From NCBI GenBank assembly GCA_000496135.1, contig KI542675.1, forward strand, positions 694,957-758,956: 64,000 nt of DNA. Reading direction: 5' to 3'. Below are positions 5,955 through 15,276 of the stretch, piece by piece. This stretch comes from Thermoplasmatales archaeon E-plasma. Lineage in GTDB: Archaea > Thermoplasmatota > Thermoplasmata > Thermoplasmatales > Thermoplasmataceae. Made by a program: the position numbers and the translations under genes. The notes under the pieces were generated by a model. That model saw nothing but the letters and a program-made list of their open reading frames with translations. It was not told the DNA's origin and did not search any database. Each line of letters opens with the position of its first letter. The first letter of the stretch is position 1.

Positions 5955-7142
5955 ATGATTGAGGGTGAAATTATTGGAAGCAATACCTACTGCTTCTCCG
6001 ATACACTTACAAAAATCTATTACCAGATAAAACTGAAAAGTTCCGGCGGGTCATTAGCTCCATCGAGGTCTGCAATAGCAATTCTCATTGACAGAAGCGG
6101 TTCCATGCACGGAGAAAAGCTCAATGATGCAAAGGAGGCTGCAAAACTGGCCGTTAATGCTCTTGGCTCAAACAATTTTATATCACTTTATTCATTTTCA
6201 ACAAAAACCGATAATCTTGTTCCATTCACCAAGGCAGGAAGTAAGGATAAAATTCTAAACAGTATTGACAGGATCAAGGCTTCTGGAGGTACTTTCATGT
6301 ACAATGCCCTGGATGAAGTTTTTCATGATGCAAAGGATTTCTCTTCCGATGGTGGTTCAGTAACCCTTATTGTTCTAACTGATGGTCAACCATCAGATGT
6401 GGGCGATGTTCAGAGGTATGAACAGCTGGCCGCAGCAGGTTCTGAGTTCGGAATGAAGATCGTGTGCATAGGCATTGGCGACTACGATGAAACCATATTG
6501 AAGGCAATGGCAGACGCCAGCAATGGAGATTTTATAAATGCCATTGACAGAAATTCCATTACAGCTGCCTTCACAAAATATGCCAGCGAAGCGGCCACAT
6601 CTGGAGGAACCTCGGCTGTCCTGAAGCTGATACCCAGAGAATCCGGAGCCATAGAAATATATGATCAGACGTTCAGCATGGATGATGGAATTGCGACCAT
6701 CAATATGGGAACTGTAGGTTCAGATCCAATTAATGTTACAGGATCTGTCTCCATTAAAGGGGGAGCCGAAGGAAATATAACCGGAATGCAGGCAGTTCTT
6801 ACATACAGGGATAACGACGGATCTCCAAAGGAAAATAAGCTGAATTTATCACTCACAAGGACAAAAAATTCGGAACTTGTTGTTTCAAATGTTAATAAGG
6901 AACTTATAAATGAAGCAAGGCTGAAGATGCAAATGGGTCAGGTGGAATATCTCATCGCCAAGGGGGATTTTGATTCAGCTACCAGAATAAGCAGGCAGGC
7001 TATGGATTCCGCAAACGCAACAAAGAAGAGGGAATTCATAGAGGCTACAAAAAGACTGGATAGAGTTCTGGATGATTCAAAGAATGGTAATATAGATAAG
7101 AAAGAGGCTTATAATCAGACTACAAGAATTAAGAGGCAGTAA
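5955..7142 (+). CDS. arnB: VWA-domain protein (ArnB-like)
   Basis: A 395-residue von Willebrand factor A protein without signal peptide or membrane segment, so cytoplasmic. The metal-ion-dependent adhesion site is complete: DRSGS (Asp46, Ser48, Ser50), Thr113 in SGGTFMYN and Asp143 in LTDGQPSD. After about residue 215 comes a beta-rich segment and then a helical C-terminus (about 300-395), the layout seen in archaeal ArnB. In Sulfolobus acidocaldarius, ArnB (VWA) binds ArnA (zinc finger plus FHA) in a phosphorylation-dependent way and both repress archaellum expression. Here the next gene, 1 bp away, is exactly such a zinc-ribbon FHA protein, followed by a PPP phosphatase and a kinase. The Arn assignment rests on domain order and neighbourhood; no archaellum genes are in the window. 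Confidence 0.85.
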   Translation: MIEGEIIGSNTYCFSDTLTKIYYQIKLKSSGGSLAPSRSAIAILIDRSGSMHGEKLNDAKEAAKLAVNALGSNNFISLYSFSTKTDNLVPFTKAGSKDKILNSIDRIKASGGTFMYNALDEVFHDAKDFSSDGGSVTLIVLTDGQPSDVGDVQRYEQLAAAGSEFGMKIVCIGIGDYDETILKAMADASNGDFINAIDRNSITAAFTKYASEAATSGGTSAVLKLIPRESGAIEIYDQTFSMDDGIATINMGTVGSDPINVTGSVSIKGGAEGNITGMQAVLTYRDNDGSPKENKLNLSLTRTKNSELVVSNVNKELINEARLKMQMGQVEYLIAKGDFDSATRISRQAMDSANATKKREFIEATKRLDRVLDDSKNGNIDKKEAYNQTTRIKRQ

Positions 7143-7143
7143 A

Positions 7144-7725
7144 ATGGCATGGTTTTGCACTAAGTGCGGTTCGGAAAATGATGATGGTGAGACAACATGT
7201 GTTGTTTGTGGCTCAGGAAAGGTAGGATTGATCGAAACACCGGAGAATGTTGTGGTTAATGATCAACCACCTAAGGCTCAGGAGGAGGCAAAGGCAGAAT
7301 CTATAGCTCAACCGGCTCAGAAGGCTCCTCCACAGGTTTCAAGTCCACCCCAGTCTCACGGGGTTATGGAGGATTCTCATGAAGAGTCTAGTTTTGTGGA
7401 GATTCAGTTTGTGCAAAGCCCTCTTGATGATATAATAGGTAAAAAGGTCAAGCTGAACCTTTCCATATTTCCTTCTGTTTCCGTTGGACGTTCTCCGGAG
7501 AATGTTCTTCAGATTCCTGATCCAAGTGTATCAAGGATGCATGGAAAGATTACTCATGAGGGGAAAGAATTCTTTTTCGAGGATTCGGGAAGTGCCAATG
7601 GAACCTACATATTTGACGGGGGCAAGTTTAATGAAATAAAGGAGAAGACAAAAATAGAAGAAAAAACCCTCATAAAGCTGGGAGAGGGTACAATAGTAAA
7701 GGTTACAGCTGTCAAATCGCTTTAG
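7144..7725 (+). CDS. arnA: Zinc-ribbon FHA-domain protein (ArnA-like)
   Basis: A 193-residue protein. A rubredoxin-like zinc ribbon (CTKC at Cys5/Cys8 and CVVC at Cys19/Cys22) is followed by a Pro/Gln/Glu-rich linker (about 35-85) and an FHA domain (about 90-190). The FHA phosphothreonine-binding residues are present: GR at 115-116, Ser130-Arg131-x-His133 and Asn152-Gly153 in SANGTYIF. The order zinc finger, linker, FHA is that of Sulfolobus ArnA. It starts 1 bp after the VWA stop and is clearly cotranscribed. The expected role is reading phosphothreonines made by the downstream kinase, probably on the VWA partner; the downstream phosphatase would reset it. Confidence 0.88.
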   Translation: MAWFCTKCGSENDDGETTCVVCGSGKVGLIETPENVVVNDQPPKAQEEAKAESIAQPAQKAPPQVSSPPQSHGVMEDSHEESSFVEIQFVQSPLDDIIGKKVKLNLSIFPSVSVGRSPENVLQIPDPSVSRMHGKITHEGKEFFFEDSGSANGTYIFDGGKFNEIKEKTKIEEKTLIKLGEGTIVKVTAVKSL

Positions 7726-7739
7726 GATGGAGAAAACAG

Positions 7740-8606
7740 ATGCAGGATTTATATCTGGTTTTACCAGATTATATAAATGATACCATAGATAGATACATCA
7801 GCAGTATGGGAGCACCTGTACCTGTGAAGAGGGTGAGCATGCAGAAAGGCATCGTTTCATTTATTGGTGATACCCATGGTGCTCTTGATGTTACCGCATT
7901 TGCAATGTTAACAGAGGCAAATTCGGACCTCATCTGCTTTGTGGGAGATCTGGTCGACAGAGGAAAGCATCAACTGTTCAATCTTCTTTACATACTTGAA
8001 ATGGCTATGATTTCCCATAAAGTCATCGTTGTAAGGGGAAACCACGAAAGTACGCTCACAAACGAGGTATATGGTTTCATAGAGGAACTGAGAGGATTTG
8101 ACATCATAGAGGAGGTCTATCCACACATTCTCAGACTGTATGGAAAACTACCTTATGCTCTGTACATGGATTCTGGTATAGTTGCAGTTCATGGCGGCAT
8201 TCCACAATATGGTATTGAAATTGAAAGCTGGAATAATCTTCCAATGGATGATCTTGAACCGATCAATACCACAGCATTTGAAATAATGTGGAATGATCCC
8301 AGGGAATTCGTGGACGGATTCATACCTGGAACAAGAGGAGAAGGAACTTTTTTCTTTGGTCCGGATGCTTATTATAAATTCGCTGAAAGAAATAAGGTCA
8401 AGCTCTTTGTAAGGGCACACGAGGTTAAGAAACAGGGCTTTGAATATTATTTTAACAGGAAGCTTATTTCAATTTTTTCATCAAGATATCATAAGGGAAA
8501 GGCTGCAATACTGAGGGTAAACGTTGAATTTCCGGATAAGCATGAGATTGAGATTGTACCTGAACCACCACCAGGGGAGGAATGGGTCCAATGGCCGGGT
8601 CCATGA
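7740..8606 (+). CDS. PPP-family Ser/Thr protein phosphatase
   Basis: A 288-residue PP1/PP2A-type metallophosphatase with all signature motifs: GDTHG (Asp44, His46), GDLVDRG (Asp70, Asp73, Arg74), GNHES (Asn101, His102, Glu103), AVHGG (His151) and RAHE (Arg225, His227). It is soluble, with an N-terminal extension of about 38 residues before the first motif. A GGAG stretch 9-12 bp upstream supports the start. Its last four bases (ATGA) overlap the kinase start, so kinase and phosphatase are translationally coupled. In Sulfolobus a PP2A-type phosphatase acts on ArnA and ArnB; the gene order here suggests the same pairing. Confidence 0.93.
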   Translation: MQDLYLVLPDYINDTIDRYISSMGAPVPVKRVSMQKGIVSFIGDTHGALDVTAFAMLTEANSDLICFVGDLVDRGKHQLFNLLYILEMAMISHKVIVVRGNHESTLTNEVYGFIEELRGFDIIEEVYPHILRLYGKLPYALYMDSGIVAVHGGIPQYGIEIESWNNLPMDDLEPINTTAFEIMWNDPREFVDGFIPGTRGEGTFFFGPDAYYKFAERNKVKLFVRAHEVKKQGFEYYFNRKLISIFSSRYHKGKAAILRVNVEFPDKHEIEIVPEPPPGEEWVQWPGP

Positions 8607-10930
8607 GCAGGGTCTATGGAGCTTTAGCTGGAATTTTATTTATCATATCAGTTAGTATATTGTCCCTTCCATTCTTTTTTGGTATAGCTATATCTTCACT
8701 GATGATTCTTCTTTCATCAGCAATGTTTGAGGGGGGTGTATTATTTTTAATCCTGAGAAAGTCTTCCGACTTTCCCCATTATGGTTACAAGATTACTATG
8801 AATGTTATAACATGGTTCATAGTCACCTATTTTATTCTTAATCTTTTGATTGATTTTTCTTCCAGTACAAAATTTCCATCTGAAATTGGGAGTATAATTT
8901 CTGATTCTTTTCTTCTGTTGCCATTTACAGGCCTCATCAGTAGCATTGTCCCTTTTGTATATGCAATGAGCGCAGGAACCCCCATAAGAAACAAATACGC
9001 ATCTAAAGCACTGGTCATGGGTTCATTTACAGCACTTAATTTTATTCCATTCATGGTTTCAGGTTTAATCCTTCTTGATTCATTCAACACATTCTTCCAT
9101 GAGTTTATTATCATTGGAATACCTCTTGGAATTGCACAGGCTGCGGTGAACAAAGAGCACTTTAAGGGAGATTTAGCAAAATTTGCGGTACTGGAAAATT
9201 TATTAATCACGTCCATTGCCCTGAACAGTACAATTTTGTTTGTTAAGAGTGTTTCATTGTTTAGTCTGACCTTTCTTATCCCTCTTGAAGATTTTTTCGC
9301 CTCTGTTTTTATTCTAATCGTTCTTCTCTTTATACTTTTAAAATTTGTGAAGAGCCTGAATTCACCATATGCGATTCAGAAAATAGCTGCTGCCATTCCA
9401 CTGGTAATTTTATCATATCTCATCATGACTTATTTCAACTTCCTTCCGGATGTTTTCATATTAAATTCCTCAAATTATTCAATATTCACCGGTACCTCAT
9501 TCTTTTATAACTTTGTAAAGGCCCTGATTTTAATGTCAATAGTTATCCTCATAGGTAGAATTATCACACTCAGAGGTGCTAAATCAACCACAATTCTTGG
9601 ATTTACAACGATTGCAGTATTGCTTGGCTTATTTTTCGCCGGATATGATTCTAACAAGTTTCAGATACCGTTTATTGTGGGTCTTGGTTTGTCTGCTGCG
9701 GTTATTGCTTCAGCAGACGCCATTTCCATAGTGATAAAGGATAGAGCCCTTCCCGGGTACGATCTCATGAAAACCTCCACACCAAAACCAAAAACATCCG
9801 GACAGAAGAGTTCTGGAACTACAAATGGAGCATCCTCATCATCTCAGACTCCGCAGACCGTGTTGAATATTCCCAGGAGAGTTCCAGAAATGTGGTTGGG
9901 GCGAAATGTATCCGGTTACACAATGCAGAGTATAATCAGCAAAGATACCGGTTTTGCCTTTGTTATGAGGGGATCAAGGCCAAATGAACCTGATGTTGCA
10001 TTGAAGATTCTTAAACCTTATTCATCTGATGGCACAAAAATTGCCTTTGACAATGAATTTATAAGAAAATTTCTCACAGAATTCCAGAATGTGATGGTTC
10101 TAAATGGGAGGAAGTATGTTGTAAATATAATTGGTGTTACAGTAAAGACATACCCTGATGATAATACTAAAATGGAAAAATATCAGGAAAATCCTCCTGC
10201 AATAGTTATGGAGCTTCTTTTAGGAGGAAAATTGTCTGATCTGCCATTCAAATATACATCCAACGACGAAATGGAATTATTCTTCGAAATCTCCGTGAGG
10301 GTAAGTCAGGGGTTGCAGGATGCCCATGACCAGAAGGTTCTTCATGGGGATATTAAACCTGACAACATAATGTTTCTAAGTAAGAATGGAATGAATATAG
10401 CAAAGTATTCAAATTCACCCGCAGAGATTGCCAGTGCAATAAGGAAGGATCTGTTCATACCAAAAATAGTTGATTTTGGATCAGCCAAAGTGAGAGGCTT
10501 TGGTGAAACCGTTTTCTCCCAATTTTCCGTTCTCTATTCACCGCCGGAAATTCTACTTAATAATTATAACACTGATGAAACATATGATGTCTATGAATTT
10601 GGTCTTGTAATGTACTATATGCTGGCAGGATGCCTGAATGATTATAGACTCTCAAAGACATACGCTAAAAGGCAGGTATTCATTGAAAGTAAAGTAAACA
10701 CAAGCAGATTTTACAACGACAAAAACATGCTTTTCAATGATGTGAGCCTTTTTCCAATTGAGGATTTGCAGGGAATAAATCCCATGGTCAAGAAGCCTCT
10801 GAATTATATTATAATGAGGTGCATAGACATTGATCCTTCAAAGCGTTACAAGGATATGAAAGATGTGAAGAATGCCCTTATCCATTGTGCAAACAGGGAT
10901 TATGGTTATACAAGGGTGAGCAACGCATGA
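8603..10930 (+). CDS. Membrane-bound Ser/Thr protein kinase
   Basis: A 775-residue protein starting at ATG 8603, which overlaps the phosphatase stop as ATGA; an upstream in-frame ATG at 8582 is less likely. Residues about 1-385 hold roughly ten hydrophobic segments, followed by a Ser/Thr/Pro-rich linker (about 390-425) and a Hanks-type kinase domain (about 435-765). Catalytic elements are Lys468 in VALKIL, HGDIKPDN (His581-Gly-Asp583, with Gly replacing the Arg of HRD) and DFGSAK (Asp624), then SPPEIL in place of APE. A polytopic sensor-like N-terminus on a Hanks kinase is uncommon, since most have a single membrane helix. The following ATGA overlap with the surface-protein gene suggests the two products work together. 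Confidence 0.92.
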   Translation: MSRVYGALAGILFIISVSILSLPFFFGIAISSLMILLSSAMFEGGVLFLILRKSSDFPHYGYKITMNVITWFIVTYFILNLLIDFSSSTKFPSEIGSIISDSFLLLPFTGLISSIVPFVYAMSAGTPIRNKYASKALVMGSFTALNFIPFMVSGLILLDSFNTFFHEFIIIGIPLGIAQAAVNKEHFKGDLAKFAVLENLLITSIALNSTILFVKSVSLFSLTFLIPLEDFFASVFILIVLLFILLKFVKSLNSPYAIQKIAAAIPLVILSYLIMTYFNFLPDVFILNSSNYSIFTGTSFFYNFVKALILMSIVILIGRIITLRGAKSTTILGFTTIAVLLGLFFAGYDSNKFQIPFIVGLGLSAAVIASADAISIVIKDRALPGYDLMKTSTPKPKTSGQKSSGTTNGASSSSQTPQTVLNIPRRVPEMWLGRNVSGYTMQSIISKDTGFAFVMRGSRPNEPDVALKILKPYSSDGTKIAFDNEFIRKFLTEFQNVMVLNGRKYVVNIIGVTVKTYPDDNTKMEKYQENPPAIVMELLLGGKLSDLPFKYTSNDEMELFFEISVRVSQGLQDAHDQKVLHGDIKPDNIMFLSKNGMNIAKYSNSPAEIASAIRKDLFIPKIVDFGSAKVRGFGETVFSQFSVLYSPPEILLNNYNTDETYDVYEFGLVMYYMLAGCLNDYRLSKTYAKRQVFIESKVNTSRFYNDKNMLFNDVSLFPIEDLQGINPMVKKPLNYIIMRCIDIDPSKRYKDMKDVKNALIHCANRDYGYTRVSNA

Positions 10931-13900
10931 TAAAAAATCCATTCACAACGAAGATTCTGGTAATTGTTGTAATTATCGCATTTATTTTTATTGAAATAGC
11001 CGCAGGAATTGGAGCAAATAACAATATCATCAAAGTATCAGAAAAAGGAAATGACATGGTTCCTGACTTAACAGGCGGTAAAATCATAGTTTACTTTAAC
11101 GAGAGTGGTCTTGGTACAGGACTTGGAAGAACCTGGTCGGTGAATATAAACGGCATCAATTATGCATCCACAAACAGGACAATTATTTTTACAGGAACAG
11201 GCAATACCCAGTATGATTATTATATCCACAGTATACAGTGTGCCGCAACGACAAATTCAAGCGGGAGTTTCAATTCCAACGCAACATTTCACATTCATTT
11301 TTATCTTAAGCCTCAGTCAAATCCACTTAAGGTTCCAGAGCGAATAGTATCATATGTTCCAATAGCCATTGACAATAATCAGGTTAGCAGCACTCCAGAT
11401 AATTTCACTGAGTATATTGTTGTGAACAGCTCTCTCTATGCAAATTATGAAAACAGGAATCTGACCAATGTGGAATTCTTCAACAGTACTGGAGGAATAA
11501 TCCCAAGCTGGCTGGAATCAGGAAACAGTCCTCAGAGTGATTCAACGATCTACTGGCTCAGATTAAACAACAGCATCCATGGGCAATCCTCTTACTTTGT
11601 ATATATGGGATTTTCCAACCGGGGCGTTCAGTTAATGAATGGTATCTGGACGGGAGAATCACCATCTCTTACATCTTCATATGGATCACTTGACGACGGA
11701 TATCATGTTTTTTCATATTACTATAACTTCTCAGGAACTGTCATCAATACGGGGCAATGGATACTCAATCAGTCCTCAAACATACAGCAATATAATGGAA
11801 TTGGAGGTAAATTCAATGGTTCTGGTGGATATCTTGCCAGCAGAGTGCATGTCCCCTCAGGCTACATGGTCAATGAATTCGTAGCATCGTGCGGGGATGG
11901 TGACGATTTCGGTTTTTTAAATACTACAGAAGAGCCGGTATATATGGGATATAATGTTTCCCAGGGGATTTACATAAGACTCGCTTCCGTTAAGACCTAC
12001 CCCGATATGATAAATAAAACCATGGATGAACAGAACCCATCAGGAAATAGTTACGGAAGTTTTGTTAACAATGAGAATACTGTGGGAACGTATACTGTGG
12101 AAACATTGAATAAAAGTTCCACATTTGATTTTTTGAATTATGGAGTTGGAAATACATCGCAGCCAATAACCGGAATGAATGAAAATTATCCAATGAGTTT
12201 CGGAATAAATGGCAGGGGGACCGGCTTTGAAATTCGATGGATCAGTGTTTCCAGAACACCGCCAGATTATGTAATGCCTTACAATTTTGCAGCAAATGAA
12301 TCTGAAAACATTTCAAGGTCAGCCATGAGTTTTGTGGCTAAAGGCATTTCAGATAACGTTCAATGGGGTATATATATTAACAATCAACTGTTTCAGTCAA
12401 GTTCCAGATCCATAATATTGTATCTGACAAACGGGCATTATTCATTCTATGTGAAAGATAATCCATCTTATTCAATTTTTTACAATTTCAACGGGATAAG
12501 CGTATCAGGAGCAAATGAAACATATTATATTCAGTTTGTACCTGAAACATATTCGCTTATATTTAATGAGGCAGGTCTCTCTGGAGAGTCATGGTATGTT
12601 CAATTACTCAATGGCCAAAATTTTTCAATCGCTTCAAATCATCTCCTTTATATTTCAGCATCTGCTTATGCAGGGAAAAATTACAGTTTTAGTATTGGGA
12701 CCGACGTTGAAGGAGAAATACCAGTTCTGAACAACACACCACTTATTTCAGGTTCCAATTATGAATTGACAGTTAAATTTCAGAAACCTTATAACATTAC
12801 ATTCGTGGAGAGGGGTCTTGTGGCAAATTCAACGTGGTACCTTAACATAAGCAAGGTAGGTTCATATTCATCAAGTTCTGGAAAAAACATTACAATACCT
12901 CTGATTAACGGAACCTATAATTTCACTATTGGAACAACGTATAAAATTCTTCATTCTCCTGGCGGAAAGATTACAGTCAATGGTTTTCCATTTATCAGGT
13001 ACGTCAACTTTACAGATTTTAACTATACCGTAAACTTTTTTGAAAAAAATCTTTCCAACGGTATGTGGAGTGTAAATGTATCTGCCCTATGGTTTAAGGA
13101 ATCTGGATTTGGAACAAATATCTCATTTTATCTAACTAATGGAACTTATAATTATAATGCATCTTCCTCTAACAGATCATTTATTGGTCAAACAGGAACA
13201 TTTACCATCAATGGGAGTAATGAATCCGTTTACATAGAATTCCATGAACTATTCACAGTTAATTTCTTTAAGGTGAATTTGCCCTCTTCATCGGTGTGGA
13301 CCGTTATTATTAATAAAACAAAGCAAACTGGTGCTGGTGTAAATCTTACTTTCCATGAAATAAACGGCAGTTATGCATTTCATGCATATACTTCGAACCT
13401 TAATTTTTCCACAAATTATACTCAATATTTTACCGTTAAAGGAAGAAATTTTAAAATTAACGTAACTTTTGCCCAGGCATATAATGTAACATTTCAGGAG
13501 ACTGGTCTTGGGAGTGGAAAATGGTATGTTAATCTTTCTACCGAACTCTCTGCTAATGCAAGCAGCGGCCTAAAAATAATTCTGCATCTGATTAACGGAA
13601 AGTATAATTTCACTGTCCAGACCTCAAATAAAACATTCCGGGCAGAATATCTTCCGCACTTTACAGTTAATTCCAGAAGCATGAACGTTAACGTAACGTT
13701 TAAGATCGTGAAATTTAACGTTACATTCATGGAAGCAGATCTTTCCTCTGGTGTGTGGTTTGTCAATCTCACTGATAATTCTAATTCGGGAGCAATAGCT
13801 CCAGGGGGAAATTTCACTTTTGCTCTTACAAACGGAACATATTCTTATTCTGTGGAAACATCATATAAAAAAGAGAAGGCAGAGTATTATCCATCATTTG

Positions 13901-14661
13901 AAGTTAATGGGAGCAAACTCAACATCACCATAAATTTTTATGCAGTGAACTTTACTTTCTATTATAATATCATTTATGAATTATATCATAACTCTAAAAA
14001 TCCTAATCAGCTGTTTCCTGGTTCACAGATGCCATGGCATCTTAATATAAGGAGTACCACCGGGTCTTTCAGTCAAATATTTAATTCAGATTCTTCTGAA
14101 ATTAACATATCGCTTCAGAACGGAACTTATTCTTACACACTTAACTATCCATATAACATATTCAATATTACGAACGCGTCGGGAACATTTATCATAAACG
14201 GGAGTAATTTGCATATGTATTCCAATGTAAATGTTACCTATTACAAACTTATAATACATGAAACCGGGCTTTCTAATGTGGAGTGGGGAGCAGCAATCCA
14301 ATTGTCGGGGAGTTTATCAAACTATTTCCCCGTAAACCTAAACGAGTCTACTTCAAATAACACGATTGTTAGTTACCTGTTCAATGGAACATATTCCATA
14401 AACTTTGGCTTGTACAGTTTAAAGAGCCCCGCGTCCTATACATTTTTAAAAAGCGTTTCTTACAGTATGAGCGGAGAATTCAACCATACTTATGAACTTA
14501 ATATCAGCCTCACGCTTCCCCCGGGGCCGGAATCCATAGCTCCTGCCGGTTTTATTTCGTTGATTGGAAGTGAGAATTTCATTTTACCATTAGCTTTGAT
14601 TCTGTTGATTACAATTATAATTGTGCCAGTTGTCAGGGGAAGGTACCCGGGAGAGCCGTGA
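10927..14661 (+). CDS. Giant surface protein with DUF2341 and tandem thermopsin-type repeats
   Basis: 1244 residues from ATG 10927 (ATGA overlap with the kinase stop; an upstream ATG at 10885 is possible but lies inside the kinase). There is an N-terminal signal/anchor segment (about 5-30) and a C-terminal membrane helix (about 1213-1235) ending in a short basic tail, so most of the chain is outside. A DUF2341-like region (about 125-235: IPSWLESGNS ... SSYFVYMGFS) precedes at least six copies of an 80-90 residue beta repeat of the type F-x-E-x-GL-x5-W-x-V ... NGTYxFxI. Asn-x-Ser/Thr sequons are very frequent, implying heavy N-glycosylation. It is translationally coupled to a kinase and 3 bp from a membrane protease, so it may be a signal-sensing envelope protein rather than plain S-layer. 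Confidence 0.85.
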   Translation: MIKNPFTTKILVIVVIIAFIFIEIAAGIGANNNIIKVSEKGNDMVPDLTGGKIIVYFNESGLGTGLGRTWSVNINGINYASTNRTIIFTGTGNTQYDYYIHSIQCAATTNSSGSFNSNATFHIHFYLKPQSNPLKVPERIVSYVPIAIDNNQVSSTPDNFTEYIVVNSSLYANYENRNLTNVEFFNSTGGIIPSWLESGNSPQSDSTIYWLRLNNSIHGQSSYFVYMGFSNRGVQLMNGIWTGESPSLTSSYGSLDDGYHVFSYYYNFSGTVINTGQWILNQSSNIQQYNGIGGKFNGSGGYLASRVHVPSGYMVNEFVASCGDGDDFGFLNTTEEPVYMGYNVSQGIYIRLASVKTYPDMINKTMDEQNPSGNSYGSFVNNENTVGTYTVETLNKSSTFDFLNYGVGNTSQPITGMNENYPMSFGINGRGTGFEIRWISVSRTPPDYVMPYNFAANESENISRSAMSFVAKGISDNVQWGIYINNQLFQSSSRSIILYLTNGHYSFYVKDNPSYSIFYNFNGISVSGANETYYIQFVPETYSLIFNEAGLSGESWYVQLLNGQNFSIASNHLLYISASAYAGKNYSFSIGTDVEGEIPVLNNTPLISGSNYELTVKFQKPYNITFVERGLVANSTWYLNISKVGSYSSSSGKNITIPLINGTYNFTIGTTYKILHSPGGKITVNGFPFIRYVNFTDFNYTVNFFEKNLSNGMWSVNVSALWFKESGFGTNISFYLTNGTYNYNASSSNRSFIGQTGTFTINGSNESVYIEFHELFTVNFFKVNLPSSSVWTVIINKTKQTGAGVNLTFHEINGSYAFHAYTSNLNFSTNYTQYFTVKGRNFKINVTFAQAYNVTFQETGLGSGKWYVNLSTELSANASSGLKIILHLINGKYNFTVQTSNKTFRAEYLPHFTVNSRSMNVNVTFKIVKFNVTFMEADLSSGVWFVNLTDNSNSGAIAPGGNFTFALTNGTYSYSVETSYKKEKAEYYPSFEVNGSKLNITINFYAVNFTFYYNIIYELYHNSKNPNQLFPGSQMPWHLNIRSTTGSFSQIFNSDSSEINISLQNGTYSYTLNYPYNIFNITNASGTFIINGSNLHMYSNVNVTYYKLIIHETGLSNVEWGAAIQLSGSLSNYFPVNLNESTSNNTIVSYLFNGTYSINFGLYSLKSPASYTFLKSVSYSMSGEFNHTYELNISLTLPPGPESIAPAGFISLIGSENFILPLALILLITIIIVPVVRGRYPGEP

Positions 14662-14664
14662 CCT

Positions 14665-15276
14665 ATGGTAAAGCAGGATAGAATTTTGCTCGATCGGGAG
14701 GTTAAGGATTTCTTACTTGCCATAATGGTTCTTTTCACAGGATACGTAATTTCAATATATGTTGACACAAGATTTCCTCTGAGGTCTTTGCCACTTGTTC
14801 TGCTTGTAAGCCTTTTTTCCATAGTTCTGGCTTTCTCAGCACACGAGGGAGCTCACAGGTTTGTATCTGTCAGGCTTGGCGCAATAGCTTTCTTTAAGAA
14901 ATGGAATCTTGGTCTCCTGCTCATAATAGTATCATCTCTCCTGGGATCACTCTTTGCCACTGCGGGAGCCGTTCAATTTACCGGTATTACAGATAAGTCA
15001 AAGATAGGGAAATCCGCACTGGCCGGACCTGCAACAAATTTGATTATTGGATCTGCTGTCTTTGGTATCTATTTCATCAGCGGATTCAGTTCAGTGAGCC
15101 TTGCAGGATTTTTCCTCATTAATATCTATAGAATAAATTTGTGGTTAGGGTTGTTCAATATGATTCCCATACCTCCAATAGACGGTTCCAAGGTGTTCAT
15201 GTGGGATATTAAAATATTTATCATTGTCCTGGTGATTGCAATTGCCCTGAATGTTCTCTCCGGAACCTTTCTCTGA
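14665..15276 (+). CDS. M50-family (site-2-type) membrane metalloprotease
   Basis: A 203-residue protein with about five or six membrane segments. The zinc-binding HEGAH (His60, Glu61, His64) lies inside a hydrophobic segment, and the third ligand is the Asp of IPPIDGSKVF near residue 172, as in rhomboid-like S2P/M50 peptidases. It begins 3 bp after the surface-protein stop and ends the operon. Family members cut transmembrane segments of regulators, so the adjoining single-span surface protein or the kinase are obvious candidate substrates; that link is inference from gene order only. Confidence 0.88.
   Translation: MVKQDRILLDREVKDFLLAIMVLFTGYVISIYVDTRFPLRSLPLVLLVSLFSIVLAFSAHEGAHRFVSVRLGAIAFFKKWNLGLLLIIVSSLLGSLFATAGAVQFTGITDKSKIGKSALAGPATNLIIGSAVFGIYFISGFSSVSLAGFFLINIYRINLWLGLFNMIPIPPIDGSKVFMWDIKIFIIVLVIAIALNVLSGTFL

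Follow-up and report, generated by a model that had tools for sequence, protein, structure and literature searches.

ArnA and ArnB relatives encoded with a polytopic kinase and a PPP phosphatase in Thermoplasmatales

In Thermoplasmatales archaeon E-plasma, a VWA protein, a zinc-ribbon-FHA (ZnR-FHA) protein, a PPP-type phosphatase and a polytopic Ser/Thr kinase are encoded side by side in the window, the 64,000-nucleotide stretch of DNA analysed here. We consider it fairly probable (about 60%) that these four genes form an ArnA/ArnB-type switch with its own kinase and phosphatase in one operon, a function assigned by homology and by analogy with Sulfolobus. The arrangement connects a regulator known from work on Crenarchaeota, for which there is no agreed upstream sensor, with a membrane kinase encoded alongside it.

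In Sulfolobus acidocaldarius, the kinase ArnC phosphorylates the RHB region of ArnB, after which ArnA binds; PP2A dephosphorylates ArnB and dissolves the ArnA-ArnB complex, and in Sulfolobus the unphosphorylated proteins bind each other via the zinc ribbon (PMC6509490, PMC7472852, PMC12852372). In Saccharolobus islandicus, ArnA and ArnB jointly repress the ups pilus genes (PMC10470591). Papers on the Arn proteins confine archaeal FHA proteins to the Thermoprotei/Crenarchaeota (PMC6509490, PMC7472852, PMC12852372, PMC10470591); haloarchaeal FHA proteins, a separate family, are known from ESCRT loci (PMC10936438). In a study of E-plasma, the genes counted as gained include those for a PP2A-family phosphatase and a membrane-associated kinase; FHA and von Willebrand proteins go unmentioned in its text (PMC10354927). 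Among the papers searched, there was no account of the operon, or of ArnA/ArnB in the order Thermoplasmatales.

Operon layout

Six ORFs follow one another on the forward strand from 5955 to 15276 (Table 1). Their re-checked coordinates give gaps of 1, 14, -4, -4 and 3 bp, and the row from VWA protein to M50 protease is exactly that of the original prediction. The MIDAS, FHA, PPP, kinase and HExxH motifs that it named are likewise present, as judged by Pfam matches and by catalytic motifs that are intact and conserved, and the writer, eraser and reader that it placed together do lie in one compact array with a conserved TATA-like box upstream. This box is kept in G070 (L073) and G072 (L080), two genomes of the same genus (g1), and loci of g17 carry a similar A/T element at the equivalent position. 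Its spacing suggests a leaderless transcript starting at the VWA gene. A scan for sigma-70 promoters and terminators was uninformative, the host being an archaeon. The start of the kinase gene was set by its -4 overlap with the phosphatase gene; an alternative in-frame ATG lies at 8582. Defence assignments made by PADLOC for the locus were rejected as generic kinase matches.

Table 1 Features of the operon and its flanks (positions in the window)
Feature	Position	Strand	Basis or comment
TATA-like box AAATATTTAA	5923..5932	+	centre about 27 nt 5' of the VWA ATG
ArnB-type VWA protein, 395 aa	5955..7142	+	VWA with MIDAS and C-terminal helical ArnB_C
ArnB_C/RHB region with Thr-[Lys/Arg] sites	6897..7109	+	alignment to 8s05, T[KR] count
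ArnA-type ZnR-FHA protein, 193 aa	7144..7725	+	FHA 4.8e-13, Zn_Ribbon_1
PPP-family (PP1/PP2A/PP5-like) metallophosphatase, 288 aa	7740..8606	+	Metallophos 1.9e-24
Polytopic Ser/Thr kinase, 775 aa	8603..10930	+	Pkinase 6.3e-20 at 454-750
Large surface protein, 1244 aa	10927..14661	+	DUF2341 (marginal Pfam match) and Ig-like repeats, C-terminal TM anchor
Site-2-protease-like (M50) small membrane protein	14665..15276	+	HEGAH, NxxPxPPxDG
Zinc-ribbon protein, 222 aa	15599..16267	+	homologues follow the kinase in L019, L020, L021, L171

The ArnB-type and ArnA-type proteins

The likeness to ArnA and ArnB, originally drawn from domain types, proved to be homology. In addition to a VWA domain (Pfam, 6.5e-20), the VWA protein carries ArnB_C (PF18677, 1.2e-25 at residues 315-385), which scores 89.6 bits against a cut-off of 26.3. 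Its closest solved structure is that of ArnB (8s05_A; phmmer, 2.8e-27 over residues 40-381), the paralogue vWA2/ArnE being matched as well, and the ZnR-FHA protein matches ArnA (5a8i) over its full length (phmmer, 8.2e-35). These three matches are the reason why we regard the two proteins as genuine ArnB and ArnA relatives, and they extend the range of ArnA/ArnB beyond the published one.

The MIDAS residues of the VWA protein (D46xS48xS50, T113 and D143) are invariant among orthologues. So are T343, T356 and T365 in the C-terminal domain, which align to T322, T335 and T344 of S. acidocaldarius ArnB, and a tail motif YN[QE]T[TS][RK]IKR is conserved in g1, g17 and g30. Thr-[Lys/Arg] occurs four times in the last 85 residues, compared with 0.97 times in shuffled sequences (p = 0.0055); the tail count is six in both Sulfolobaceae ArnB and the G094 protein of g13. 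The enrichment reaches p <=0.007 in the ArnB tails of the window, g17, g13 and Sulfolobaceae, and is not significant in g30 (p = 0.13), L082, L083 or Sulfolobaceae ArnE. The SIETT motif, which holds the fast-phosphorylated ArnC site T353 of the S. acidocaldarius protein, is missing from the VWA protein, where D374 and S375 stand instead.

In the ZnR-FHA protein, the zinc-ribbon residues Cys5, Cys8, Cys19 and Cys22 are invariant, as is Trp3. The phosphate-binding residues of the FHA site are mostly retained: R116, S130 and R131 align to R132, S146 and R147 of ArnA, and R116 and S130 are conserved among orthologues, R131 being replaced by lysine in G094. The position of ArnA T167 is occupied by Ala151 in the window and by serine in g17.

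Phosphatase and polytopic kinase

All motifs of the PPP phosphatase (GDTH, GDLVDRG, GNHE, HGG and RAHE) are intact and conserved, with GDxH, GDxVDRG, GNHE and the metal-binding His invariant in seven orthologues, and its closest solved structures are the eukaryotic BSU1, PP1, PP5 and PP2A. The N-terminal half of the kinase contains about 10-12 hydrophobic segments or predicted TM helices (crude predictions), followed by the cytoplasmic kinase domain; an AF2 model of the N-terminal region has a pLDDT of 45. Its catalytic motifs are intact and conserved (the lysine of VALK, HGDIKPDN and DFG), a Y-x-x-N-P-P insert precedes the hinge, and Pfam gave no match to the TPR family in this protein. Kinases of this polytopic type were found in nine genomes, all with operon genes, and only where FHA and PPP genes occur. 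The backbone of the kinase tree is unresolved.

Distribution in Thermoplasmatales

ArnB_C was found in 10 of the 117 Thermoplasmatales genomes, and 400 genomes drawn from the class added no further ones. Conservation of the gene order, which the original prediction proposed as a check, is borne out for the first four genes; the surface protein and M50 protease lie outside this core. The order VWA-FHA-PPP-kinase recurs in g1 (G000, the genome of the window; G070, G071 and G072, the last with the VWA tail masked on its contig), in g17 (G104-G108, where contig ends truncate several copies) and in g30 (G036). Such recurrence argues against chance, because it extends to genomes whose VWA proteins are only 38-62% identical. 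In G058 (g4), a 3-kb contig carries FHA-PPP-kinase at its edge, with a stop within the PPP gene. That contig (L177, G058:C67) resembles the g30 version, contains masked stretches and may have strayed into the g4 bin. Two different operon copies in the bin of G105 (L018 on C2 and L021 on C10) may reflect two strains binned together.

G094 has the order FHA-PPP-VWA, without the kinase. In the tree, its VWA copy groups with Sulfolobaceae ArnB (98/98), while the other copies form a clade of their own (100/99), a split that suggests two sources of ArnB-type VWA proteins in Thermoplasmatales. A single entry of ArnA/ArnB into the order is doubtful on the same grounds.

Surface protein, M50 protease and zinc-ribbon gene

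The fifth gene encodes a protein with a signal-type N-terminal segment and a C-terminal TM segment and with 69 N-x-S/T sequons, compared with 27 in shuffled sequences (maximum 41). Surface proteins of the repeat type given in Table 1 occur in 86 of the 117 genomes of the order, whereas a full-length relative (79%) is found only in G072, at the same position. The sixth gene is the weakest domain call of the six, its Pfam M50 match lying below threshold (19.5 bits; cut-off 27.2); HEGAH (H60-H64) and NxxPxPPxDG (N165-G174) are invariant. A generic relative is present in 110 of the 117 genomes, close relatives (83-86%) are confined to g1, the window protein being a paralogue of the copy found order-wide.

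A seventh gene (zinc-ribbon protein), missed in the original prediction, is the fifth core gene: in g17 it stands directly after the kinase, giving VWA-FHA-PPP-kinase-zinc-ribbon protein, and the surface protein and M50 protease are missing there, as they are from the g30 and g13 loci. Only in g1 do they lie between the kinase and the zinc-ribbon gene (G000 and G072; G071 from the M50 gene onward), with the -4 and 3 bp junctions around them kept in G000 and G072. We take the pair to be a genus-level insertion, because window-type copies are close only in g1 and are missing from g17; contrary to the original prediction, they are thus not members of the conserved unit. The 322-bp gap before the zinc-ribbon gene suggests that it has its own promoter here. 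The AF2 model of the zinc-ribbon protein (pLDDT 73) gave a Foldseek match to EcoT38I (2e-4, low TM-score). The predicted fold bears a weak likeness to restriction-endonuclease-like proteins and RPB5, and no obvious PD-ExK catalytic set was seen.

A second locus of genome G000 (C3:684645-690682; L172 8645-12205, L068 3261-5729; also L170) has a large surface protein directly 5' of a polytopic pseudokinase. The pseudokinase is related to the operon kinase, but has HGN for HGD and lacks both the DFG aspartate and the VALK lysine; the locus is conserved in G071.

Comparison with known systems

The operon shares with the S. acidocaldarius Arn network full-length ArnA and ArnB homologues, an ArnB_C domain with conserved threonines, the ZnR-FHA combination, a PPP-type phosphatase and a Ser/Thr kinase. 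It differs in that kinase and phosphatase are encoded in the same operon as the ArnA/ArnB relatives, that the SIETT motif is missing and that the host order is Thermoplasmatales rather than Sulfolobales. The operon kinase is polytopic; no TM segments are predicted for the TPR kinase ArnC or for ArnD, which consists of a kinase domain alone.

The comparison with Thermoproteota rests on four loci. A Thermoprotei MAG (L082) has VWA-FHA, a PPP gene on the opposite strand and a polytopic kinase clustered, two Desulfurococcales (L083, L084) have polytopic kinase-VWA-FHA, and a Sulfolobaceae MAG has ArnE, ArnA and ArnB at its locus. In L082-L084 the same types of partner are adjacent and the kinases share with those of Thermoplasmatales a Y-x-x-x-P-P insert before the hinge, whereas the gene order differs, the PPP gene of L082 lies on the opposite strand and the tails in L082 and L083 have no Pfam ArnB_C. 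Gene order can reveal kinase and phosphatase partners of ArnA/ArnB-type switches.

Many Chloroflexota (L091, L099, L128 and other loci; Herpetosiphon, Chloroflexus, Thermoflexus) have kinase-PP2C-VWA-ZnR-FHA operons. Here too, writer, eraser, VWA and ZnR-FHA proteins occur together, with Thr-[Lys/Arg] repeats in the helical tail of the VWA protein, which suggests a general design. In contrast to the archaeal operon, the phosphatase is PP2C and not PPP, the VWA and FHA proteins form separate clades, Pfam ArnB_C is absent, and the kinases lack the Y-x-x-x-P-P insert and, where scored (Thermoflexus), predicted TM segments. In Herpetosiphon, an FtsW/RodA-like gene lies upstream of this operon.

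Archaeal ESCRT-STK/STP/FHA loci (PMC10936438) also combine a membrane Ser/Thr kinase, a phosphatase and an FHA protein, but their FHA proteins are fused to CdvA-like domains; the ORFs read around the operons include no recognisable ESCRT gene.

Proposed mechanism and alternatives

From the genes, motifs, gene order, co-occurrence and threonine sites described above, we infer a scheme for substrate pairing, direction of effect, sensing and output. The polytopic kinase would sense a membrane or envelope condition and phosphorylate the VWA protein at the Thr-[Lys/Arg] sites of its C-terminal helical domain. The ZnR-FHA protein, presumably already held weakly via its zinc ribbon, would then bind the VWA phosphothreonines through its FHA domain to form a tight complex, and the PPP phosphatase would undo both the phosphorylation and the complex. 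The analogy with Sulfolobus and Saccharolobus suggests that the complex would act on the expression of surface appendages (archaella or pili). In g1, the inserted surface protein and M50 protease behind the kinase may feed an outside signal to it. Outside-to-inside signalling is a reasonable hypothesis given the predicted topology of the kinase. Encoded in the same operon, this enzyme is a direct candidate for how ArnA/ArnB switches receive signals. Because the Sulfolobus writers ArnC and ArnD lack TM segments, its substrate may be something other than the VWA protein, and the missing SIETT motif and the alanine (Ala151) at the position of T167 would count against the switch.

That the pathway is not tied to archaella, as the original prediction had it, is a possibility rather than a result: a full set of archaellum genes (arlB, C/D/E, F, G, H, I, J) is clustered on a different contig of G000 (C2, 275.5-282.3 kb), and the operon is not adjacent to it. 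Archaellin occurs in eight operon-bearing genomes and in 47 of the 117 genomes overall; a rule that archaellin and operon always go together is unsupported, archaellin being present in many genomes without the operon. No archaellin was detected in G094 (99% complete) or G036, nor in the incomplete G108. The output is therefore not always the archaellum, because G094 and G036 both carry ArnA/ArnB. This also fits a different, less probable reading, in which kinase, phosphatase and FHA/VWA proteins would regulate no appendage but form a general checkpoint for the envelope or for growth, comparable to the kinase-phosphatase-FHA clusters of bacteria. The Chloroflexota operons, adjoining an FtsW/RodA-like gene in Herpetosiphon, speak for such a role, but their VWA proteins belong to a separate clade without Pfam ArnB_C, neither their phosphatase nor their kinase is of the type found here, and the Sulfolobus relatives of the window proteins affect arl and ups genes (PMC10470591). 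A TerY-type (vWA-kinase-PP2C) stress triad, with which the locus had been compared, has the same domain classes, VWA, kinase and phosphatase, but is a different system: its phosphatase is PP2C, its VWA protein is short and it has no FHA protein. That the locus is such a triad is very improbable, and we rejected this identity since the families involved, PPP and ArnB_C, do not fit; a plausible TerY-like set lies elsewhere in the same genome. This set (G000:C4:49879-52753; L070 2880-5754) comprises a kinase, a PP2C-like phosphatase and a VWA-like protein that has a MIDAS-type motif and no Pfam match.

For the surface protein and M50 protease, it is somewhat less than an even bet that they are passengers, an inserted pair co-transcribed with the kinase and playing no part in the switch. 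Their absence from the g17, g30 and g13 loci and the wide occurrence of their relatives agree with this, whereas the position and junctions kept in G000 and G072, and the M50-zinc-ribbon arrangement also seen in G071, do not. The surface protein-pseudokinase locus of G000 and G071, in which the combination recurs, likewise makes a functional link between surface protein and kinase more plausible. That the M50 protease frees a signal by cleaving the surface protein or the kinase, through regulated intramembrane proteolysis, appears unlikely: both protease motifs are intact, and a TM-anchored surface protein and a polytopic kinase are encoded directly upstream, but the Pfam match lies below its cut-off, no first-cut protease was recognised within the operon and g17 operons lack the M50 gene. 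Returning to the switch itself, we regard as speculative the broader idea of an ancient, self-contained archaeal signalling module made up of membrane kinase, PPP, ArnB and ArnA. The Sulfolobus Arn network would be its dispersed remnant and the Chloroflexota operons its version with PP2C; in g1, a surface receptor and an intramembrane protease would have joined it to give a one-operon transmembrane phospho-threonine pathway.

Two further kinase loci were noticed. In G078 (L179 5267-7832), a different kinase lies directly 5' of a PPP phosphatase, with no VWA or FHA gene nearby, and in G000 (C3:669156-673052; L069 1157-5053) an AAA/TPR regulator is followed by a kinase-FHA fusion protein.
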